Assembly: GCA_030591965.1 (NCBI GenBank)
Contig: JAUVAA010000002.1
Span: forward strand, 1 to 52,573
Direction of reading: 5' to 3'
Source: a bacterium
GTDB taxonomy: Bacteria > Pseudomonadota > Gammaproteobacteria > Methylococcales > Methylomonadaceae
Length of the DNA stretch: 52,573 nucleotides
The notes beneath the pieces were generated by a model, which searched no databases, had not been told where the DNA came from, and saw only the letters and a list, made by a program, of their open reading frames with translations. How positions within the stretch are numbered: the first letter of the stretch is position 1; the number at the start of each line of letters is the position of its first letter. Positions 3,547-24,721 of this stretch are shown in pieces. The translations under genes were made by a program, and so were the position numbers.

Positions 3547-3564
3547 GTTATTCTCTCTTGATTA

Positions 3565-3619
3565 GTAGGGCGGACTTCAGTCCGTTTTTTTAGCAATGGC
3601 GGACTAAAGTCCGCCCTAC
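3565..3619. repeat. REP-like palindromic element, copy 1
   Basis: A 55-bp imperfect inverted repeat lies between the ASCH gene and hisD. Its outer arms are GTAGGGCGGACT and AGTCCGCCCTAC, each carrying a nested small hairpin (GACTTCAGTC on the left, GACTAAAGTC on the right). The spacer is T-rich. A second copy lies in the opposite orientation at 41110-41164, and similarity seems to continue for about 25 bp beyond the arms on one side. It could act as a terminator or mRNA stabiliser, but mainly looks like a dispersed intergenic repeat. Confidence 0.85.
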
Positions 3620-16291: not shown

Positions 16292-17743
16292 ATGAAACAG
16301 TCTTTGCAACTCCGCATGGGGCAGCAGTTATCTATGACGCCTCAGTTACAGCAGGCGATCAAGTTACTGCAACTATCAACACTCGACTTACAGCAAGAAA
16401 TTCAGCAAGCATTAGATTCAAATATGATGCTTGAAGTTGTTGAGGATGAAGGAGGCTCTTTAAATGAACAAAAAGTTGTTGAAAATACGGTAGATAAAAC
16501 AGATCAGACTAGTAGTGAAGGCTCGCAAACAGATGTGCCTGATGAGCTGCCTACGGATAGTTCTTGGGAGGACGTATTCGAATCTGTGCAAATGGGTACG
16601 GCTGCTGAGCCAGCTGGAGATATGCCTGATTTTGAAGTGCAGCGAAGTAAAGCAGATAGCTTGCAGGATCATTTGTTATGGCAAATGGAAATGGTGCCTT
16701 TTACCGACAGGGATAAAGCAATAGCTATGGCGGTTATTGATTCAGTTAATGGTGATGGCTATTTAAATGGTACTCCAGATGATATATATCAGGGCTTGGC
16801 TGAGCAGTTGGAAGACCTAGAGATGGATGAGCTGTATGCAGTTTTGCATCGTATACAGCGATTTGACCCCGCGGGGGTAGCGGCAGAGAATTTGCAAGAT
16901 TGTTTGCGCTTACAGTTAGTGCAGTTACCAGACACTACGCCTTTTAAAGAACCGGCTTTAGAGTTGGTAGAGCGGTTTTTGGATATATTGGCAGCACAAG
17001 ATCAAGTTAAGTTGATGCGCAAGTTGGCAGTTTCAGAAACTAAATTGGCGGACATTATTGCTTTAGTGCGCTCGCTAGACCCGCAGCCTGGGCGATCTAT
17101 TGAAGAGAGTGAGTCTGAATATATTGTGCCTGATTTGTTTGTTTTTAAGGTTGACGGAGAATGGCGAGTCGAATTAAATCCCGATATTGCGCCTAAGTTA
17201 CGGGTTAATCCCTTTTATTCGAGCATGATTAAGCGTGCAGATAATAGTAAAGATAATGTCAGTATGAAAGAGCATTTGCAGGAAGCAAGGTGGTTTATTA
17301 AGAGCTTACATAGTCGAAACGATACTTTATTGCGTGTTGGACGTAGTATTATTGCTAAGCAAATAGAGTTTCTTGAGCATGGGGAAATTGCCATGAAGCC
17401 CATGGTATTAAGGGATATTGCAGAAGAATTGGAGTTGCATGAGTCAACTATTTCCCGGGTAACTACGCAGAAATATATGCATTTACCCAATGGGGTTATT
17501 GAATTTAAGTATTTTTTTTCCAGTCATGTTTCGACATCTGCGGGAGGAGAATGTTCGGCCACGGCCATTAGGGCGTTTATCAAAGAGTTAGTTAGTACGG
17601 AAAACCCCGCAAAGCCATTAAGCGATAGTAAAATTGCGGGTTTATTGGAAGAAAAGGGAATTAATGTTGCGAGGCGCACTATCGCTAAGTACCGCGAAGC
17701 AATATCTATTCCATCATCTAGTCAAAGAAAGCGACTTTTGTAA
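16292..17743 (+). CDS. rpoN: RNA polymerase sigma-54 factor
   Basis: The alternative sigma factor that recognises -24/-12 promoters and needs an AAA+ activator. The 483 residues carry the Gln-rich activator-interacting N-terminus (LRMGQQLSMTPQLQQAIKLLQLS), an acidic low-complexity linker, the core-binding domain, a helix-turn-helix near HESTISRVTTQKY, and the RpoN box ARRTIAKYREA (about 460-470). A -24/-12 type promoter candidate occurs in this same window at 45872-45887. Confidence 0.98.
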   Translation: MKQSLQLRMGQQLSMTPQLQQAIKLLQLSTLDLQQEIQQALDSNMMLEVVEDEGGSLNEQKVVENTVDKTDQTSSEGSQTDVPDELPTDSSWEDVFESVQMGTAAEPAGDMPDFEVQRSKADSLQDHLLWQMEMVPFTDRDKAIAMAVIDSVNGDGYLNGTPDDIYQGLAEQLEDLEMDELYAVLHRIQRFDPAGVAAENLQDCLRLQLVQLPDTTPFKEPALELVERFLDILAAQDQVKLMRKLAVSETKLADIIALVRSLDPQPGRSIEESESEYIVPDLFVFKVDGEWRVELNPDIAPKLRVNPFYSSMIKRADNSKDNVSMKEHLQEARWFIKSLHSRNDTLLRVGRSIIAKQIEFLEHGEIAMKPMVLRDIAEELELHESTISRVTTQKYMHLPNGVIEFKYFFSSHVSTSAGGECSATAIRAFIKELVSTENPAKPLSDSKIAGLLEEKGINVARRTIAKYREAISIPSSSQRKRLL

Positions 17744-17794
17744 GAAAGTAGTATAATGACTGTTTTTTTTTGAGCACTATTAGGAGTTAAAAAT

Positions 17795-18088
17795 ATGCAA
17801 GTTAGCATAACTGGTCATCACGTTGAAGTAACAGAAGCAATGAAGCAGCACGTAGAAGAGAAAATTGGTAAATTGAAGCGTCATTTTGATAATGTAACTG
17901 ATGTGCATGTTATTTTGACAGTAGAAAAACTAGAGCAAAAAGCAGAAGCGACAGTGCAAATTAGTGGTGCAACATTATTTGCTGATGATGTTCAAGAGAA
18001 TATGTATACGGCTATTGATAGTATGGTTGATAAATTAGATCGTCAAATTATTAAACATAAAGAAAAAACTCAAGCACGCCGCAGTTAA
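17795..18088 (+). CDS. hpf: Ribosome hibernation promoting factor (short HPF)
   Basis: Binds the 30S subunit in the mRNA/tRNA channel and helps form inactive 100S ribosomes. The 97 residues are the short-form length. Typical stretches are MQVSITGHHVEVTEAMKQHV, KIGKLKRHFDNVTDVHVIL and the C-terminal DKLDRQIIKHKEKTQ. A strong TAGGAG ribosome site precedes it. It follows rpoN by 51 bp as in E. coli, but the next gene is rapZ, because ptsN is missing. Confidence 0.97.
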   Translation: MQVSITGHHVEVTEAMKQHVEEKIGKLKRHFDNVTDVHVILTVEKLEQKAEATVQISGATLFADDVQENMYTAIDSMVDKLDRQIIKHKEKTQARRS

Positions 18089-18094
18089 TTTATG

Positions 18095-18141
18095 CTGTAT
18101 GCATGGCTTATATATTATAAATAGCAAAGCCATGCATACAG
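18095..18141. repeat. Perfect 15-bp inverted repeat between hpf and rapZ
   Basis: The arms CTGTATGCATGGCTT (18095-18109) and AAGCCATGCATACAG (18127-18141) pair perfectly around a 17-nt AT-rich loop, starting 6 bp after the hpf stop. There is no T-run behind the right arm, so a simple intrinsic terminator is not indicated on the plus strand. It could be an RNase processing or mRNA-stabilising hairpin. Confidence 0.85.
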
Positions 18142-18222
18142 AAATGAGCTTATCAAGAGTATAGAGGGTTATATTCTTCGTTTAGGCTTCATTCCTGAAG
18201 GATGGTATCCCCTACTGAGACT

Positions 18223-19080
18223 ATGAAATTATTGATTTTGACTGGATTATCCGGATCAGGAAAAAGTATTGCTTTAGCTACCCTTGAGGATTGCGGATTT
18301 TACTGCATAGATAATTTGCCGATTACTTTACTAGATGATTTTGTTACTAATGTGATGCAGCAAGATCCCAAGACTTATGAGAAAACAGCAATTGGGATTG
18401 ATGCTAGAAATCACGGTGAAAGTTTGTATGCTTTTGCGGATAAGTTGGCTTTAATTAGAGCGCAAGGTATTCATTGTGATGTGGTTTATATGCAAGCAGA
18501 AGCTGAAGTATTACTGAAACGTTATAGTGAAACAAGACGACGACACCCGCTAACTGACTTGAATTTGCCATTAAAAGAGGCGATTAAAGTTGAGAAAGAA
18601 ATGCTCACGTCTGTTGCAAAATGTGCGGATTTAGTCGTTGATACGAGTCGTACTCACTATCATCAATTAAGAGAGCTGATTAGAGGGTATGTTCAAGAAG
18701 GTTCGCAGCAAAAAATTTCTATACAAACACAATCTTTTGGATTTAAGCATGGCTTACCTTTAGATGCTGATTTTGTATTTGATGCGCGTTGTTTGCCAAA
18801 CCCGTATTGGAGTCCAGAGCTTCGAGGATTTACTGGTAAAGATCAGCCGGTAATAGATTTCTTAAGCTCAGAATCAATAGTTACAGAGTTTTTTCAAGAT
18901 ATTTCAGGTCTTTTAGATCGCTGGATTCCGCGATTTGAAAAGGAAAATCGTAGTTATTTAACCGTTGCTGTCGGTTGTACCGGAGGGCAGCATCGTTCGG
19001 TATTTTTAGTGGATAGTCTTGCGCGACACTTTCAGAGCAAGGCATTCAATGTCATTATCAGGCACCGAGAGTTACAGTGA
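18223..19080 (+). CDS. rapZ: RNase adapter protein RapZ
   Basis: In enterobacteria RapZ binds the small RNA GlmZ and recruits RNase E, coupling glucosamine 6-phosphate levels to glmS expression. The protein has Walker A GLSGSGKSIAL at its N-terminus, the GFYCIDNLP block, the SETRRRHPL block and C-terminal VGCTGGQHRSVFL. The start at 18223 gives 285 residues, matching the family (284 in E. coli). An in-frame ATG at 18202 would add seven residues and has a GAAGG directly against it, so it cannot be ruled out. Confidence 0.93.
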   Translation: MKLLILTGLSGSGKSIALATLEDCGFYCIDNLPITLLDDFVTNVMQQDPKTYEKTAIGIDARNHGESLYAFADKLALIRAQGIHCDVVYMQAEAEVLLKRYSETRRRHPLTDLNLPLKEAIKVEKEMLTSVAKCADLVVDTSRTHYHQLRELIRGYVQEGSQQKISIQTQSFGFKHGLPLDADFVFDARCLPNPYWSPELRGFTGKDQPVIDFLSSESIVTEFFQDISGLLDRWIPRFEKENRSYLTVAVGCTGGQHRSVFLVDSLARHFQSKAFNVIIRHRELQ

Positions 19081-19132
19081 AAAAGGTGGTTTGCCTGCTT
19101 AGTCGGTTGCTAGGAAATAAAAAAGGATAGAT

Positions 19133-20485
19133 ATGCAAGTAAATAGACCACAAGATCACTCTGATATACACTTAGAGCGGATTATGAAGGACTTAGATGA
19201 TGGTGCACTTTATGAGGCGCGTAGTCATCTGCTGAGTTTGTATCCGGCTGAAATTGCTTTATTGCTCAGGTCGTTGCCTATCGATTATAGGTATCAGTTA
19301 TGGGCTATTGTTGCTCCTGAAGTCATGGGGCAGATACTCGTGCCCCTTCAAGGCGAGGTGCGCATTGGCCTTATTGAGCACACTTCTGCACAGGATTTAG
19401 TGATTGGTGCAAATGAATTGGCACCGAGAGATTTAGCTGATTTAGTCGGTGATTTTTCTGCTGAAATCAGAGATAAAATCCTGAAGAAAAAGAAGGATAG
19501 TCGGCTTGAAGCTGCACTTGCTTATGATGGGCATACAGCGGGTGGCTTAATGACGATGGATGTTTTGACTATAAGGGCGGATGTTACTATAGATACCGTT
19601 TTGCGCTTATTGCGAGTGCAAAAAAAAATGACAGGAAATATGGATAGCCTGTTTGTTGTGGATCGTGAGAATCATTATCAAGGCATGCTGCCTGCGGCTA
19701 CGATTTTGACTAGTGACCCACTTATGGTTGTGTCTAAATTAATGGATGTTTCTATCGCGGAAATTCCTTTGAATATGCCGGTGTCCGAAGTTGCCACTAT
19801 TTTCGAGCATAGAGATATTTTATCGGCTGGTGTTGTCGATGAGAATGGCTTGCTAGTAGGGCGAATTACCGTCGATGATGTGGTTGATGTTATTAGAGAG
19901 GAAGCAGATCACGCTATTTTGAGTTCAGCAGGTTTGGATGAAGAGCATGATTTGTTCTCGCCTGTTTTGGTTAGTGCCAAGCGACGAGCTGTATGGTTGG
20001 GTGTGAATTTATTTACCGCATTCTTAGCGTCATGGGTCATTGGTCTGTTTGAAGCAACGATTGATGAAATTGTTGCTTTGGCAGTATTAATGCCGGTGGT
20101 TGCTAGTATGGGGGGGATTGCTGGTAGTCAAACCTTGACTCTAGTGATTCGTGGTTTGGCATTACATCAGATTAGTTCAGCGAACGCTATGTCCTTTTTG
20201 TTTAAGGAATTAGCTGTTGGTGCGTTAAATGGTATTGTTTGGTCTGTCGTTGTGGCTTTGATTGCTGCGGCTTGGTTCTCAGATATGCCATTAGGTATGA
20301 TGCTTGGTGGAGCCATGATTATTAATTTAACCTGCGCGGCTTTTGCTGGGGTTATGATTCCACTCTTTTTACAAAAAAGAGGGATCGATCCTGCGTTAGC
20401 GGGTGGTGTGTTGTTAACTACCGTGACTGATGTGATTGGATTTATGTCCTTTTTAGGATTAGCGACAATTTTCCTATTGGCTTAA
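19133..20485 (+). CDS. mgtE: Magnesium transporter MgtE
   Basis: A Mg2+ channel/transporter of 450 residues. An acidic cytoplasmic N-domain (residues about 10-125, including HTAGGLMTMDVLTI at its end) is followed by a CBS pair, with VGRITVDDVVDVI in the second CBS, and then by five hydrophobic helices from about residue 285. The selectivity region PVVASMGGIAGSQTLTLVIRG is well conserved. It is preceded by AAAGGA and lies 52 bp after rapZ. No M-box-like leader fits in that gap. Confidence 0.96.
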   Translation: MQVNRPQDHSDIHLERIMKDLDDGALYEARSHLLSLYPAEIALLLRSLPIDYRYQLWAIVAPEVMGQILVPLQGEVRIGLIEHTSAQDLVIGANELAPRDLADLVGDFSAEIRDKILKKKKDSRLEAALAYDGHTAGGLMTMDVLTIRADVTIDTVLRLLRVQKKMTGNMDSLFVVDRENHYQGMLPAATILTSDPLMVVSKLMDVSIAEIPLNMPVSEVATIFEHRDILSAGVVDENGLLVGRITVDDVVDVIREEADHAILSSAGLDEEHDLFSPVLVSAKRRAVWLGVNLFTAFLASWVIGLFEATIDEIVALAVLMPVVASMGGIAGSQTLTLVIRGLALHQISSANAMSFLFKELAVGALNGIVWSVVVALIAAAWFSDMPLGMMLGGAMIINLTCAAFAGVMIPLFLQKRGIDPALAGGVLLTTVTDVIGFMSFLGLATIFLLA

Positions 20486-20521
20486 AACTGACTTTAAAAA
20501 ATTATATTGAGGAAATAAAAA

Positions 20522-20890
20522 ATGAGTATAAAAAAATCACCTTTAGCAATGGTAGTAGGAACGACACTGTTTTCAGGTTTGGCTGTAACAACAGCTCAAG
20601 CGGAAGAGTTTGTTGGTGTTGAGAGTAACCCATTTGCGCTAACTGAATTAGCAAATGGTTATATGCATGTTGCGGAAGCTGATAAGTCTAAGCAAGGCGA
20701 TATGAAAATGAAAGCGGGTGCTTGTGGTGAGGGAAAATGCGGAGCCAGCATGACAGCTCCAGGTGCTTTAGAAAAAACAGCGGAAGGTAAATGTGCAGGC
20801 AATAAGCCTATGCCTGGAGCTAAAAAAGCTAATGCGAAAGCTATGGAAGGAAAATGTGGTGAAGGGAAATGCGGCAGTAGTATGCAATAA
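20522..20890 (+). CDS. Secreted EGKCG-repeat peptide, HvfA-like putative RiPP precursor
   Basis: A 122-residue protein with a clear Sec signal peptide ending in AQA around residue 27. The mature part contains NPFALTELANGYMHVAEAD, then four EGKC motifs with cysteines at C73, C91, C112 and C117, plus C68. This matches low-complexity HvfA-type precursors, whose EGKCG cysteines are modified by DUF692/MNIO enzymes (HvfB) with a DUF2063 partner (HvfC). Neither partner nor a DoxX-like gene is nearby; the neighbours are mgtE (36 bp upstream) and, past a terminator, mraZ. A GAGGAA ribosome site precedes the start. The role, probably metal binding or stress related, is inferred from the family. Confidence 0.85.
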   Translation: MSIKKSPLAMVVGTTLFSGLAVTTAQAEEFVGVESNPFALTELANGYMHVAEADKSKQGDMKMKAGACGEGKCGASMTAPGALEKTAEGKCAGNKPMPGAKKANAKAMEGKCGEGKCGSSMQ

Positions 20891-20933
20891 GATGTAAATG
20901 TTGCCGGAATATACTCTCCGGCGATGTGATTTT

Positions 20934-20977
20934 AAGCTCATAAAGTGCGCTTGTGTGACATTTTATGAGCTTTTTTA
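20934..20977 (+). terminator. Rho-independent terminator after the EGKCG-peptide gene
   Basis: AAGCTCATAAA pairs with TTTATGAGCTT around a 17-nt loop and is followed by TTTTA. A smaller hairpin, GCCGG/CCGGC, sits just upstream at 20903-20922. Together they close the kds-lpt-rpoN-mgtE side and separate it from the dcw cluster. Confidence 0.85.
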
Positions 20978-21190
20978 TTGCCTGTAAGTTTTGTAATTAC
21001 TGTGAGGCAGGGGGGGAGGTTTTAGTTCAGTTAATTATAAGGAAATGATTATATTTTGGATTCCGATATATCACATTAACAACATTTTTTAAATACTTGA
21101 TAGCTATTGTTATTTTGGGTAATTTTAAATGCAAAATTAGTGGGTAAGATAGTGATTTTTAAGAAAGATTGGCTTTATTTTTAAACAACC

Positions 21191-21219
21191 TTGACTAACG
21201 AATGCTAGAAAACTATAGT
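21191..21219 (+). promoter_or_regulatory. Sigma-70 promoter of the dcw cluster (Pmra)
   Basis: TTGACT at 21191-21196 and TATAGT at 21214-21219 are separated by exactly 17 bp. The transcription start would fall near 21226, just before the GTGG boxes and about 60 bp before mraZ. The 210 bp upstream of it (20978-21190) are AT-rich and contain no gene that I can see. Confidence 0.7.
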
Positions 21220-21227
21220 TATCCGCA

Positions 21228-21271
21228 GTGGTGAAAAGTGGTGGAAAGTAGTTTTTTTAGGAAAACAGTGG
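21228..21271 (+). promoter_or_regulatory. Phased GTGG boxes, probable MraZ operator
   Basis: GTGG occurs at 21228, 21238 and 21268, with GTAG at 21248, all on a 10-bp lattice and followed by A-rich bases. MraZ is known to bind tandem GTGG/TGGG-type direct repeats with about this period at its own promoter. The boxes lie directly downstream of the predicted -10, where binding would block transcription. Confidence 0.6.
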
Positions 21272-21288
21272 TTATTTCAGGGGGTTGG

Positions 21289-21756
21289 GTGTTTCGAGGT
21301 GTCACGGCAATTAATTTAGATGCAAAAGGCCGTTGTGCAATTCCCACTCGGTACCGAGAGGAGTTACACGACTGTTGTGAGTGTCAATTAGTTGTAACTG
21401 TTGCTGTGAATGAGCGCTGTGTTGGTGAGCCTGGGTGTTTATGGGTTTATCCTCTGCCTGAATGGAATAAATTAGAGTTAACTATTAGTAAGTTACCTAC
21501 CTTGGATAAAATGGCTGGAAAATTGCGTCGTTTTGTTATTGGTTATGCAATTGAAGCAGAAATGGATGCGCAAGGGCGTATATTATTGTCAGAAAAATTA
21601 AGAAAATTTGCTGGAATGGAAAAAAAACTGATTTTAGTTGGTCAGTTGAATAAGTTTGAAATATGGAATGAAGCATCCTGGAACGCCAAAGAAGATGAGT
21701 GGATGAGTGGCGACCAAGATGACGATTTGAGTGGAGTAAGTAATTTATCTTTTTAA
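21289..21756 (+). CDS. mraZ: Transcriptional regulator MraZ
   Basis: An AbrB-like DNA-binding protein with two MraZ domains that regulates the dcw cluster. The family start MFRG corresponds to GTG TTT CGA GGT at 21289, with AGGGGG a few bases upstream, giving 155 residues. An upstream in-frame GTG at 21238 would run through the operator. Domain 1 has INLDAKGRCAIPTRYREEL and domain 2 has EMDAQGRILLSEKLRKFAG, each with the DAxGR signature. The region between carries five cysteines (HDCCECQ, then RC and GC), which is unusual for MraZ. It is followed 11 bp later by rsmH. Confidence 0.93.
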   Translation: MFRGVTAINLDAKGRCAIPTRYREELHDCCECQLVVTVAVNERCVGEPGCLWVYPLPEWNKLELTISKLPTLDKMAGKLRRFVIGYAIEAEMDAQGRILLSEKLRKFAGMEKKLILVGQLNKFEIWNEASWNAKEDEWMSGDQDDDLSGVSNLSF

Positions 21757-21767
21757 TTGGGAAAATC

Positions 21768-22691
21768 ATGCATTTACCGGTGTTATATAGCGAAGCTTTG
21801 CGTGAATTAACCATTAAACCAGATGGGATTTATATCGATTGTACTTTTGGTCGGGGCGGACATAGTAAAGGTTTGTTGCAGCAATTAGGTTCCGATGGGA
21901 AATTGCTGGCATTAGATAGAGACTTGGATGCGATCAACTCTGATATTGCGCAGGAGCTATCTAAAGACCCGCGGTTTGAGTTAGAGCATTGTTGTTTTTC
22001 GCAGTTACTAAATGTAGTAGAAAAGCGCGGATGGATAGGTAAGGTTGATGGGATTCTCATGGACTTTGGGGTTTCTTCGCCGCAGTTAGATAATGCCGAG
22101 CGTGGCTTTAGTTTTATGCAGGATGGTCCGTTAGATATGCGTATGGACTGCAGTTCGGGGTTATCGGCGGCCGAATGGTTGGCTAGTGTCTCGGAACAAG
22201 ATTTAGTGCGTGTGCTTTATGATTATGGTGAAGAGCGCTTTGCACGGCGAATTGCTGCTGCTGTTGTCGCGCAGAGGTTAGAAGCACCTTTAGAGACAAC
22301 TAAGCAGTTTGTTGACTTATTGGTAGAGGCAATCCCGTTTAGAGAAAAACATAAGCACCCCGCTACACGTAGTTTTCAGGCGGTAAGAATAGCAGTAAAT
22401 CACGAGTTAGATGAAATAATCGCCGTCTTAGAGCAGGCGGTTAATGTTTTAGCGAGTGGTGGTAAGCTCGCGGTGATTTCTTTTCATTCTTTAGAAGATA
22501 GAATTGTTAAGCGCTTTATTAGGGATGAGTCGCGGGGCAAGTACAATCCAGTTAAGTTACCTATGCGGGCTGATGAGTTGGCTGCGATAAGGCTAATAAA
22601 ATGTGGTAAGGCAATTAAGGCTGGGGCAGAAGAGTTGACACAGAATACTAGAGCGCGCAGTGCTGTTATGCGTGTTGCAGAGCGTAAGTAA
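21768..22691 (+). CDS. rsmH: 16S rRNA m4C1402 methyltransferase RsmH
   Basis: A SAM-dependent methyltransferase that methylates N4 of C1402 in 16S rRNA, formerly MraW. The 307 residues have the SAM motif IDCTFGRGGHSKGLL at about 23-37, LMDFGVSSPQLDNAERGFSF in the centre, GPLDMRMD, and HPATRSFQAVRIAVNHEL. The order mraZ-rsmH-ftsL is the standard head of a dcw cluster. Confidence 0.98.
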   Translation: MHLPVLYSEALRELTIKPDGIYIDCTFGRGGHSKGLLQQLGSDGKLLALDRDLDAINSDIAQELSKDPRFELEHCCFSQLLNVVEKRGWIGKVDGILMDFGVSSPQLDNAERGFSFMQDGPLDMRMDCSSGLSAAEWLASVSEQDLVRVLYDYGEERFARRIAAAVVAQRLEAPLETTKQFVDLLVEAIPFREKHKHPATRSFQAVRIAVNHELDEIIAVLEQAVNVLASGGKLAVISFHSLEDRIVKRFIRDESRGKYNPVKLPMRADELAAIRLIKCGKAIKAGAEELTQNTRARSAVMRVAERK

Positions 22692-22700
22692 TACTGAATT

Positions 22701-22964
22701 ATGGAGCGTATGTTTGTCGTAATTTTGCTGATAATGCTGGTAGGTTCGGGCTTGGCGGTTATTTATGCTAAGTATAATTCTCGATTGGTTTTTATTGAAA
22801 TACAAAAAGCTGAGCAAGAGTTGGATCGATTGGAAGTGTTGTGGGGCAGGTTAACACTCGAAGAGCGTATGTTGGCAGATCATAATAGGGTCGAAGAAAC
22901 CGCTAGAAAAACAATGGGTTTAGTAGAGTTAGAGCGGAAATCTATCGTTTATATAAAGCTTTAG
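22701..22964 (+). CDS. ftsL: Cell division protein FtsL
   Basis: A small bitopic division protein that forms the FtsQLB complex and activates FtsWI. Of 87 residues, 4-22 form the transmembrane helix and the rest is a periplasmic coiled coil (about 30-65, with RLVFIEIQKAEQELDRLEVL). Sequence conservation is low, so size, topology and position between rsmH and ftsI carry the call. It lies 9 bp after rsmH and 2 bp before ftsI. Confidence 0.93.
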   Translation: MERMFVVILLIMLVGSGLAVIYAKYNSRLVFIEIQKAEQELDRLEVLWGRLTLEERMLADHNRVEETARKTMGLVELERKSIVYIKL

Positions 22965-22966
22965 CT

Positions 22967-24721
22967 ATGTCGGTTGCTGAAAAGAAAAAAAACAGTAAAA
23001 AGGCCAGCGATTTTTCGGGAAGAAGAAAGTTGGTGTTAGTTTTTATGCTACTTGGAGTCTGTGTGCTGATTTTGAAAGCAATACAGTTGCAAGTTATGGA
23101 TACACAGTTTTTGCAGAAGCAAGGACGAAGTCGGCAGGTTGGTACGGTCAAGATTGCGGCTTATAGGGGGCAAATTAAGGATCGTAATGGTGAAAGCCTT
23201 GCTGTTAGTGCGCCAGTGGAATCAGTTTGGGTTAACCCTCAGTATTGTAAAGAGACAGAAATCGAAGAGTCCAAATTAATTTGTAGTGATTTAGGTGGTA
23301 TTCGGTTTAAGCAGGCGGCGAAACTTTTGGGAATGTCTTTAACTAGGTTGCTAAAAGCTTTTGATGCTTCAACACATAAGCAATTTGTCTATTTAAAAAG
23401 ACATATTGAGCCTAGCGTAGCGGTAGAAGTTAAGGCTTTAGGCTTGCCAGGTATAGGTTTTATTCGAGAGTTTAAACGCTTCTATCCTGCTGGGGAGGTT
23501 GCGGCTCATCTGTTAGGGTTTACTAATATAGATGATAAGGGTCAAGAGGGCTTGGAGTTAATGTATAACTCAAGCTTGAAAGGGGTTGCCGGTAGTAAGC
23601 GTGTTATTCGAGATGGTAAGAGACGCATTATCGAAGAGCAAAACCTGGAAAGCATTAAAGAGCCAGTGGATGGGCAGGATTTACAATTAAGTATTGATGA
23701 GCGTTTGCAGTATTTAGCTTATAAAGAATTAAAGGCTGGCGTAGTAAAGCATAGGGCAAAGTCTGCTTCTTTGGTGATATTAGAGGCCGAAACGGGAAAT
23801 ATTTTAGCGGTAGTTAATCAGCCGTCTTTTAACCCGAATATGCGTAAAAACTTAAAGATATCTCGTTATCGGAATAGAGCAATAACTGATGTTTATGAGC
23901 CTGGCTCAACAATGAAACCTTTAGTTGTTGCTGCTGCTTTAGAGGGCGGGTTTATTAAAGATACGCAGATGTTTGATACTAAAGATTTTAAGATTAAAGG
24001 TAGAAAGGTTAAGGACGATCATAAATACGGCACTTTAAACTTAACGGATGTCTTGAAAAAATCAAGCAATGTTGCGGCCAGTAAAATTGCCTTATCCATG
24101 CCGTCTGATTATTTCTGGCGTTTTTATCATGACTTAGGGTTTGGTGTCGCTCCTAGGGTTAATTTTCCTGGAGAAGCGAGTGGCATTTTGCCCGAGTATT
24201 TTGGTTGGAGTAAGTTTGAGCAGGCAACTTTATCATTTGGTTATAGAGTCTCAATGTCCACTTTACAGTTGGCTCGGGCATACACGGTTTTAGCTGATGA
24301 TGGCGTGTTACATACAGTGAGTTTGTTGAAACGTGAAAAAGATGAATATGCTATGCAGGTTTTATCGCCTAAAACAGCAATAAAAGTAAGAACAATGATT
24401 GAACAGGTTGTGCAAAAAGGTGGTACTGCGACTCGAGCGCGAGTAGATGGTTATCGAGTGGCGGGTAAAACGGGCACGGCTAAAAAAGCCAGTAGAAAGG
24501 GAGGTTATGGCGATGATCATTTGTCCGTATTTGTTGGTATGGCACCTGCTAGCGATCCAAAATTAGTCATTGCTGTGATGGTTGATTCACCGCAAGGTGA
24601 TTATTATGGTGGTTTAGTGGCTGCGCCAATTTTTGCTAAAGTCATGGGTGGCGCGCTAAGAGTTTTAGGTATTGCTCCTGATGAAGAGCAAACCATGTCG
24701 GTATTATTAAGCAAACAGTGA
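22967..24721 (+). CDS. ftsI: Peptidoglycan D,D-transpeptidase FtsI (PBP3)
   Basis: The septal transpeptidase that cross-links peptidoglycan during division and a beta-lactam target. Of 584 residues, 21-40 are the membrane anchor, followed by a dimerisation domain and the transpeptidase domain. The active-site triad of motifs is intact: S314-T-M-K317, S366-S-N368 and K501-T-G-T. The basic N-terminus (EKKKNSKKASDFSGRRK) is typical for interaction with the divisome. It overlaps nothing but lies 1-2 bp from both neighbours. Confidence 0.98.
   Translation: MSVAEKKKNSKKASDFSGRRKLVLVFMLLGVCVLILKAIQLQVMDTQFLQKQGRSRQVGTVKIAAYRGQIKDRNGESLAVSAPVESVWVNPQYCKETEIEESKLICSDLGGIRFKQAAKLLGMSLTRLLKAFDASTHKQFVYLKRHIEPSVAVEVKALGLPGIGFIREFKRFYPAGEVAAHLLGFTNIDDKGQEGLELMYNSSLKGVAGSKRVIRDGKRRIIEEQNLESIKEPVDGQDLQLSIDERLQYLAYKELKAGVVKHRAKSASLVILEAETGNILAVVNQPSFNPNMRKNLKISRYRNRAITDVYEPGSTMKPLVVAAALEGGFIKDTQMFDTKDFKIKGRKVKDDHKYGTLNLTDVLKKSSNVAASKIALSMPSDYFWRFYHDLGFGVAPRVNFPGEASGILPEYFGWSKFEQATLSFGYRVSMSTLQLARAYTVLADDGVLHTVSLLKREKDEYAMQVLSPKTAIKVRTMIEQVVQKGGTATRARVDGYRVAGKTGTAKKASRKGGYGDDHLSVFVGMAPASDPKLVIAVMVDSPQGDYYGGLVAAPIFAKVMGGALRVLGIAPDEEQTMSVLLSKQ

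Follow-up and report, generated by a model that had tools for sequence, protein, structure and literature searches.

The Precursor Gene and Its Transcription Unit

An open reading frame with an ATG start occupies exactly positions 20522-20890, on the plus strand, of the window, i.e. the whole 52,573-nucleotide stretch of DNA that was analyzed. The ORF, a profile match, an alignment of orthologues, and dN/dS values mark it as an HvfA-type (EGKCG) precursor gene, and its product has 122 amino acids. As judged by eye, residues 1-27 (20522-20602, plus strand) resemble a Sec signal, with KK followed by a hydrophobic stretch and then AQA, so that the region ends in TTAQA and the next residue is E. 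A conserved NPFALTELANGYM segment (residues 36-48; 20627-20665, plus strand) was delimited in the orthologue alignments, and the cysteine core (20717-20875, plus strand), defined from the sequence and the alignments, comprises ACGEGKCG, EGKCAGNKPMP, and EGKCGEGKCG. The five cysteines of the peptide are residues 68, 73, 91, 112, and 117; four of them lie in EGKC motifs, three being EGKCG and one EGKCA, and the fifth, Cys68, sits in AGACGEGKCG, where no Lys precedes it. The layout given in the preliminary description, a Sec-like signal (by eye), a NPFALTELANGYM-type segment, and four EGKC motifs, was thus found in this ORF. An Rfam scan of positions 17000-23000 returned no matches, and no match was found in the plasmid collection compared.

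The gene upstream, mgtE (19133-20485, plus strand), belongs to the same apparent operon and was assigned by Pfam and by TIGR00400 (266.8 bits; cut-off 232.75) to the MgtE-type Mg2+ channels. The peptide gene starts 36 nucleotides downstream of the mgtE stop codon at 20485, behind the ribosome-binding site TTGAGGAA (20507-20514, plus strand), read from the sequence, whose letters are identical in six of eight related loci compared and are represented by AGGA in the other two. The stop codon of the peptide gene is followed by a GC hairpin without a U-run (20898-20927, plus strand; -15.6 kcal/mol) and by a terminator-like hairpin that runs into a U-run (20934-20972, plus strand; -21.3 kcal/mol, z -6.1), the latter not being among the sites returned by a consensus terminator scan. 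The 36-nucleotide gap and this second hairpin agree with the earlier statement that the gene is appended to mgtE and closed by its own terminator. Ahead of mraZ, a promoter-like site TTGACT-17-TATAGT (21191-21219, plus strand) matches the consensus at 10 of 12 positions, in a region where promoter-like sites are no commoner than in shuffled sequence, and it suggests that the dcw genes may start their own transcript there. The simplest reading of this arrangement is that mgtE and the peptide gene would form one unit ending ahead of the dcw cluster. The peptide gene has mgtE and mraZ as neighbors, with no adjacent hvfB, hvfC, or DoxX gene.

Family Assignment and Conservation of the Peptide

The peptide scored 30.8 bits against the NCBIfam HvfA-family domain NF050137 (cut-off 19.5) and 37.6 bits against the HvfA equivalog NF050188 (cut-off 95). 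Because the first score lies above and the second below its cut-off, the peptide is a member of the HvfA family rather than HvfA itself, and the earlier assignment to an HvfA-like, EGKCG-type family is supported by the NF050137 match. The mgtE-linked peptide itself therefore belongs to a known class of precursors, of which unlinked examples are already in print, and its product, to judge from the sequence, is most likely exported and of the HvfA kind that binds copper. No Pfam family matched the peptide at E<=1; the absence of DUF2282 among such matches led us to reject membership of the bufferin Buf1 family.

The relatives retrieved by peptide match are of the Methyloprofundus type, including Methyloprofundus MAGs and methanotrophic symbionts from the gills of Bathymodiolus, and the nearest peptide, 89% identical, comes from a symbiont of B. 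puteoserpentis (L002). Cys68, Cys73, and Cys91 are kept in all 29 aligned orthologues, and Cys112 and Cys117 in 23 and 25 of them, some rows being cut by contig ends. The CAGN block around Cys91 is invariant in the 29 rows and constitutes a hallmark of the short subfamily, and the residue preceding Cys91 is Asn, Ser, or His, not Lys, in several rows. The rows were picked by the N-terminal NPFALTELANGYM motif, so that conservation of that segment in this alignment is circular; G145, L044, and L056 escaped the pattern because they have DPF where it requires NPF, and by eye these three relatives keep the three invariant cysteines.

The dN/dS ratio of the peptide gene was 0.10 for the comparison with the nearest relative genome, G068, and ranged from 0.10 to 0.23 over the 11 mgtE-linked relatives that were aligned; apart from G068, these all have dS values close to 1 or higher. 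The small size and low complexity of the ORF, and nothing further, could point to a spurious frame or a decaying relic; the low ratios just given (0.10 with G068 and no higher than 0.23 in any of the 11 comparisons), together with the three invariant cysteines, refute that reading, which we regard as hardly credible.

The mgtE-Peptide Pair Is a Genus-level Arrangement

The conservation of the pair across relatives was examined as the preliminary description had proposed. The order mgtE-peptide is kept in 9 of 9 congeneric genomes in which the locus is assembled (G020, G046, G068, G086, G100, G113, G122, G131, and G145) and also in L003, L005, and L006, which are additional Methyloprofundus MAGs; in L005, mgtE is split over two frames. 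The pair is accordingly not specific to one strain. The gaps between mgtE and the peptide gene in the relatives are about 25-75 nucleotides, and mraZ follows the pair in all of these genomes except G113, where the contig ends. In the tenth congener, G139, no match was found from within rpoN onward except for an mgtE paralogue, and contig C157 breaks at that point. Outside the genus, none of 20 mgtE loci (L122-L141), drawn from the 99 non-congeneric genomes that gave an mgtE match, has an adjoining peptide gene or mraZ within flanks of up to 1.5 kb (only 131 bases past mgtE in L129). The orthologous short peptide of other genera is located elsewhere, following a one-helix protein of about 60 amino acids in 7 of 12 loci inspected; in one of the 12, that of G053 (genus g29), a longer form of the peptide directly adjoins HvfBC. 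These data show that the mgtE-peptide pair is a genus-level arrangement.

The second option of the preliminary description was a metal binder that acts unmodified and is linked to Mg2+ transport. A peptide that worked with MgtE as a periplasmic metal ligand, serving or regulating the transporter, would fit the order kept in the nine assembled congeners and in L003, L005, and L006, the gaps of about 25-75 nucleotides, and the presence of a ribosome-binding site. Nevertheless, the link is one of position, with the peptide alongside mgtE in 0 of the 20 loci outside the genus and located elsewhere in other genera; furthermore, among the loci viewed mraZ also adjoins mgtE only in this genus, so that a single rearrangement suffices to explain the pair. 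To our knowledge, no Mg2+ ligand chemistry has been described for the HvfA-type peptide family. A partnership with MgtE is therefore improbable, since a genus-level position by itself is no proof of Mg2+ function, and the association of the peptide with mgtE, including their presumed co-transcription, is most likely positional.

Unlinked HvfBC Genes in the Congeners

Among 151 genomes of the family searched, all 10 congeners had DUF692 (PF05114), in every case with DUF2063 adjoining it and away from the mgtE-peptide locus. The two products of G068 exceeded the equivalog cut-offs for HvfB (449.9 versus 360) and HvfC (283.5 versus 142). When checked against the MbnB profile, the MNIO of G068 scored 57.7, far from the cut-off of 325, and membership of the methanobactin system was rejected on the basis of its failing MbnB and passing HvfB. 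A bare HvfBC pair lies near an aroF-type gene in 8 of the 10 congeners (L064 and L067-L073). In the other two, G020 (L065:7468-10635) and G046 (L066:3323-6807), the HvfBC genes lie behind sigma, anti-sigma-like, and DoxX genes, the sigma and DoxX assignments having been confirmed for G046. The G046 locus also contains a Cys-less precursor remnant of 61 amino acids, with a GSCGG motif in another frame, and no precursor remnant was seen at the G020 locus. These two loci look like an intermediate step in the taking apart of an hvf cluster, to judge from their gene content.

All frames of the 10 congeneric HvfBC loci (10.2-19.5 kb; in L065 and L073 one flank is short, owing to a contig end) were searched for precursors, and no stretch of at least 20 amino acids with GKCG/AKCG, CGEG, or EGKC was found, a search that would miss a precursor with other cysteine contexts. 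In G086, which is assembled in two contigs, there is one DUF692 match and there are four precursor matches; the nearest to the enzyme, at a distance of about 89 kb, is the mgtE-linked one. Modification in trans, the first of the two options offered in the preliminary description, is thus supported by the unlinked DUF692-DUF2063 pair of the 10 congeners.

As to substrate choice, Arg15/Arg16 and Asp249/Phe250 of FonB are stated in PMC13097082 to govern the selection of Lys-Cys substrates. The motifs GLG.RR and ERDF, matched by eye to these residues without an alignment to the FonB sequence, are present in all 10 congeneric HvfBs, and RR and ERDF recur in 3bww, the closest solved relative. At loci of the family with MNIOs of another kind (L015-L018), RT and ERDD are found instead, and a pattern search did not find the motifs in L024 and L030.

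The HvfBC Region Is Missing from the Host Assembly

The host is a methane-oxidizing bacterium of the deep sea, and its genome is a draft of 2.93 Mb in 223 contigs (90.8% complete, 6.5% contaminated). Profile searches of the draft gave no matches for either DUF692 (PF05114) or DUF2063 (PF09836), and HvfB of G068 found no match even at E<=10, in a search run without a positive control of its own. To locate the region in which the enzymes would be expected, the draft was compared with G068. Host contig C207 (17,274 bases) matches G068 up to base 17,272, where it stops inside mpl, and contig C130 begins, at base 17, at G068 C83:30748. Between these two contig ends lie 13.9 kb of G068 (C83:30749-44653), with HvfC and HvfB mid-stretch; gnd, zwf, pgl, aroF-type, thiG, and trmB genes were also recognized there by eye from their translations. 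When the segment of G068 spanning gnd through the first half of mpl was compared with host DNA, matches were limited to short repeats and to two segments at 64-66% identity in the zwf-like gene, and no host DNA matched over G068 HvfBC among the best 40 of 104 candidates scored. ThiG (PF05690) likewise had no match anywhere in the host draft, whereas it was matched in 14 of 14 control genomes, in 13 of them over the cut-off.

Had the region truly been deleted, its two flanks would be expected on a single contig. With contig ends on both sides and thiG missing as well, the evidence is strong, though indirect, that the absence of HvfBC is most likely an assembly hole. The earlier statement that the gene is without maturation enzymes therefore holds for the window and the draft, with no DUF692 and no DUF2063, and is not supported as a claim of a true orphan, the place of the enzymes being unassembled. 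Since neither domain was found in the draft, it is from the relatives that we infer the presence of HvfBC in the host. Should the lineage instead have lost HvfBC, the unmodified peptide could act as a thiol metal binder. The lack of matches for PF05114, PF09836, and the congeneric HvfB would be in agreement with such a loss, as would PMC12452194, which counts 67 genomes lacking MNIO among 2583 with Buf_EGKCG and suggests roles for unmodified peptides. A true orphan is nonetheless unlikely in view of the syntenic hole between contig ends, which has taken thiG with it, the presence of DUF692 in 10 of 10 sampled congeners, and the conserved EGKC context of a gene under purifying selection. The finding removes the apparent puzzle of an HvfA-like gene without enzymes and advises caution in calling orphans in draft genomes.

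The draft also holds repeats. A 56-base near-palindrome at positions 3564-3619 of the window, GTAGGGCGGACTT...AGTCCGCCCTAC, has the character of a REP/MITE-like repeat, and it and other contigs of the host genome match a single G068 repeat on both strands (best 40 of 213 candidates scored in a DNA search of the host genome against G068).

Further Precursors and Spread in the Family

Precursor relatives at E<=0.001 are near-universal in the family, being present in 144 of the 151 genomes. A hand count gave 140 genomes with both precursor and MNIO, 4 with the precursor only, 4 with MNIO only, and 3 with neither; this co-occurrence (Fisher p 0.002) is confounded by genome completeness, and no weight was put on it. 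Three genomes, G006, G035, and G116 (98, 94, and 91% complete, respectively), contain precursor relatives and have no PF05114 match, so enzyme-less precursors may really exist; these cases could be either assembly gaps or true orphans.

No second precursor was found in the host genome at E<=10. Congeners carry additional HvfA-like precursors. Those beside sucCD-like genes, named by eye (L082-L087), are long, at 193-278 amino acids, and rich in Met and Cys; others are short, with a lipoprotein-like N-terminus. One of the latter, with eight cysteines (G086, L076:2947-3258), lies between a P-type ATPase gene and a P-II-like gene, which is followed by an RND-family transporter gene, and this neighborhood fits a role in metal handling. 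The sucCD place of the host likewise falls at contig edges (C212 and C65), and the first about 125 bases of C212 do not align there (best 40 of 56 candidates scored). The existence of these further precursors means that HvfBC could be kept in the congeners for them rather than for the mgtE-linked peptide.

Proposed Mechanism and Relation to Known Systems

We consider it probable that the gene encodes an HvfA-type precursor on which an unlinked HvfBC pair acts in trans, and that the modified peptide is exported and binds copper. The precursor, of the oxazolin/captophorin type, would be transcribed with mgtE up to its own terminator and in the cytoplasm would meet HvfB (DUF692/MNIO) and HvfC (DUF2063), whose paired genes would lie at another genomic site. 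HvfC would recognize the signal-peptide region, and HvfB would turn the EGKC cysteines into 5-thiooxazoles, after which the product would be exported by Sec and might bind or buffer copper in the periplasm. According to published work, the signal peptide acts as a leader for HvfA and bufferin (PMC13419390), HvfB requires HvfC, and the HvfA-type product binds copper (PMC13419390 and PMC13097082 for both).

The peptide shares with HvfA/oxazolin of Haemophilus (hvfABCX, the product of which has been revised to a 5-thiooxazole) the signal-like N-terminus, the EGKCG repeats, and the HvfA-family profile, and the HvfB and HvfC of G068, the nearest relative genome, reach equivalog level. Unlike Haemophilus HvfA, however, it falls below the equivalog cut-off, lacks adjacent hvfB, hvfC, and DoxX genes, is linked to mgtE, and has the invariant CAGN block (EGKCAGNKPMP) beside its EGKCG repeats. 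The captophorins fontiphorin and gonophorin (PMC13097082) have the same EGKCG Lys-Cys core, and the RR and DF selectivity residues are found in the congeneric HvfB; in the captophorin clusters described in that paper, precursor, MNIO, and PME1 lie together, whereas here precursor and enzymes are unlinked.

The same layout has been described in general terms in PMC12452194, which reports Buf_EGKCG precursors that stand alone, as well as genomes in which a single MNIO/PME pair accompanies several precursors, and proposes modification in trans. The main text of that paper contains no word beginning with methylo and no occurrence of mgtE, and the bare HvfBC pair maintained through a genus is an addition to it. 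The 10 congeners, with HvfBC genes beside which no intact precursor was found and with a short precursor conserved far off, hence offer a natural test of modification in trans.

A wider and more tentative possibility, somewhat short of an even chance, is that the hvf cluster of Methyloprofundus has been dispersed, so that one HvfBC pair without an adjoining precursor serves precursors scattered at mgtE, at sucCD, and at the P-type ATPase/RND genes. Such an arrangement would let a single enzyme pair make several thiooxazole peptides that differ in regulation and divide the labor among them, the mgtE-linked one being perhaps a constitutive envelope copper buffer.

Methanotrophs depend on a copper enzyme, and methanobactin (MbnA/MbnB) is an MNIO-made copper peptide known from these bacteria. 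The present system is unlike methanobactin in that the enzyme of G068 scores 57.7 against the MbnB cut-off of 325 and in that the precursor is an exported peptide with multiple EGKC motifs. No published account of this peptide in methanotrophs was found among the literature matches listed, in which subscription papers are thinly covered. A second putative MNIO-made copper peptide, near-universal in the family, would be worth testing beside methanobactin.
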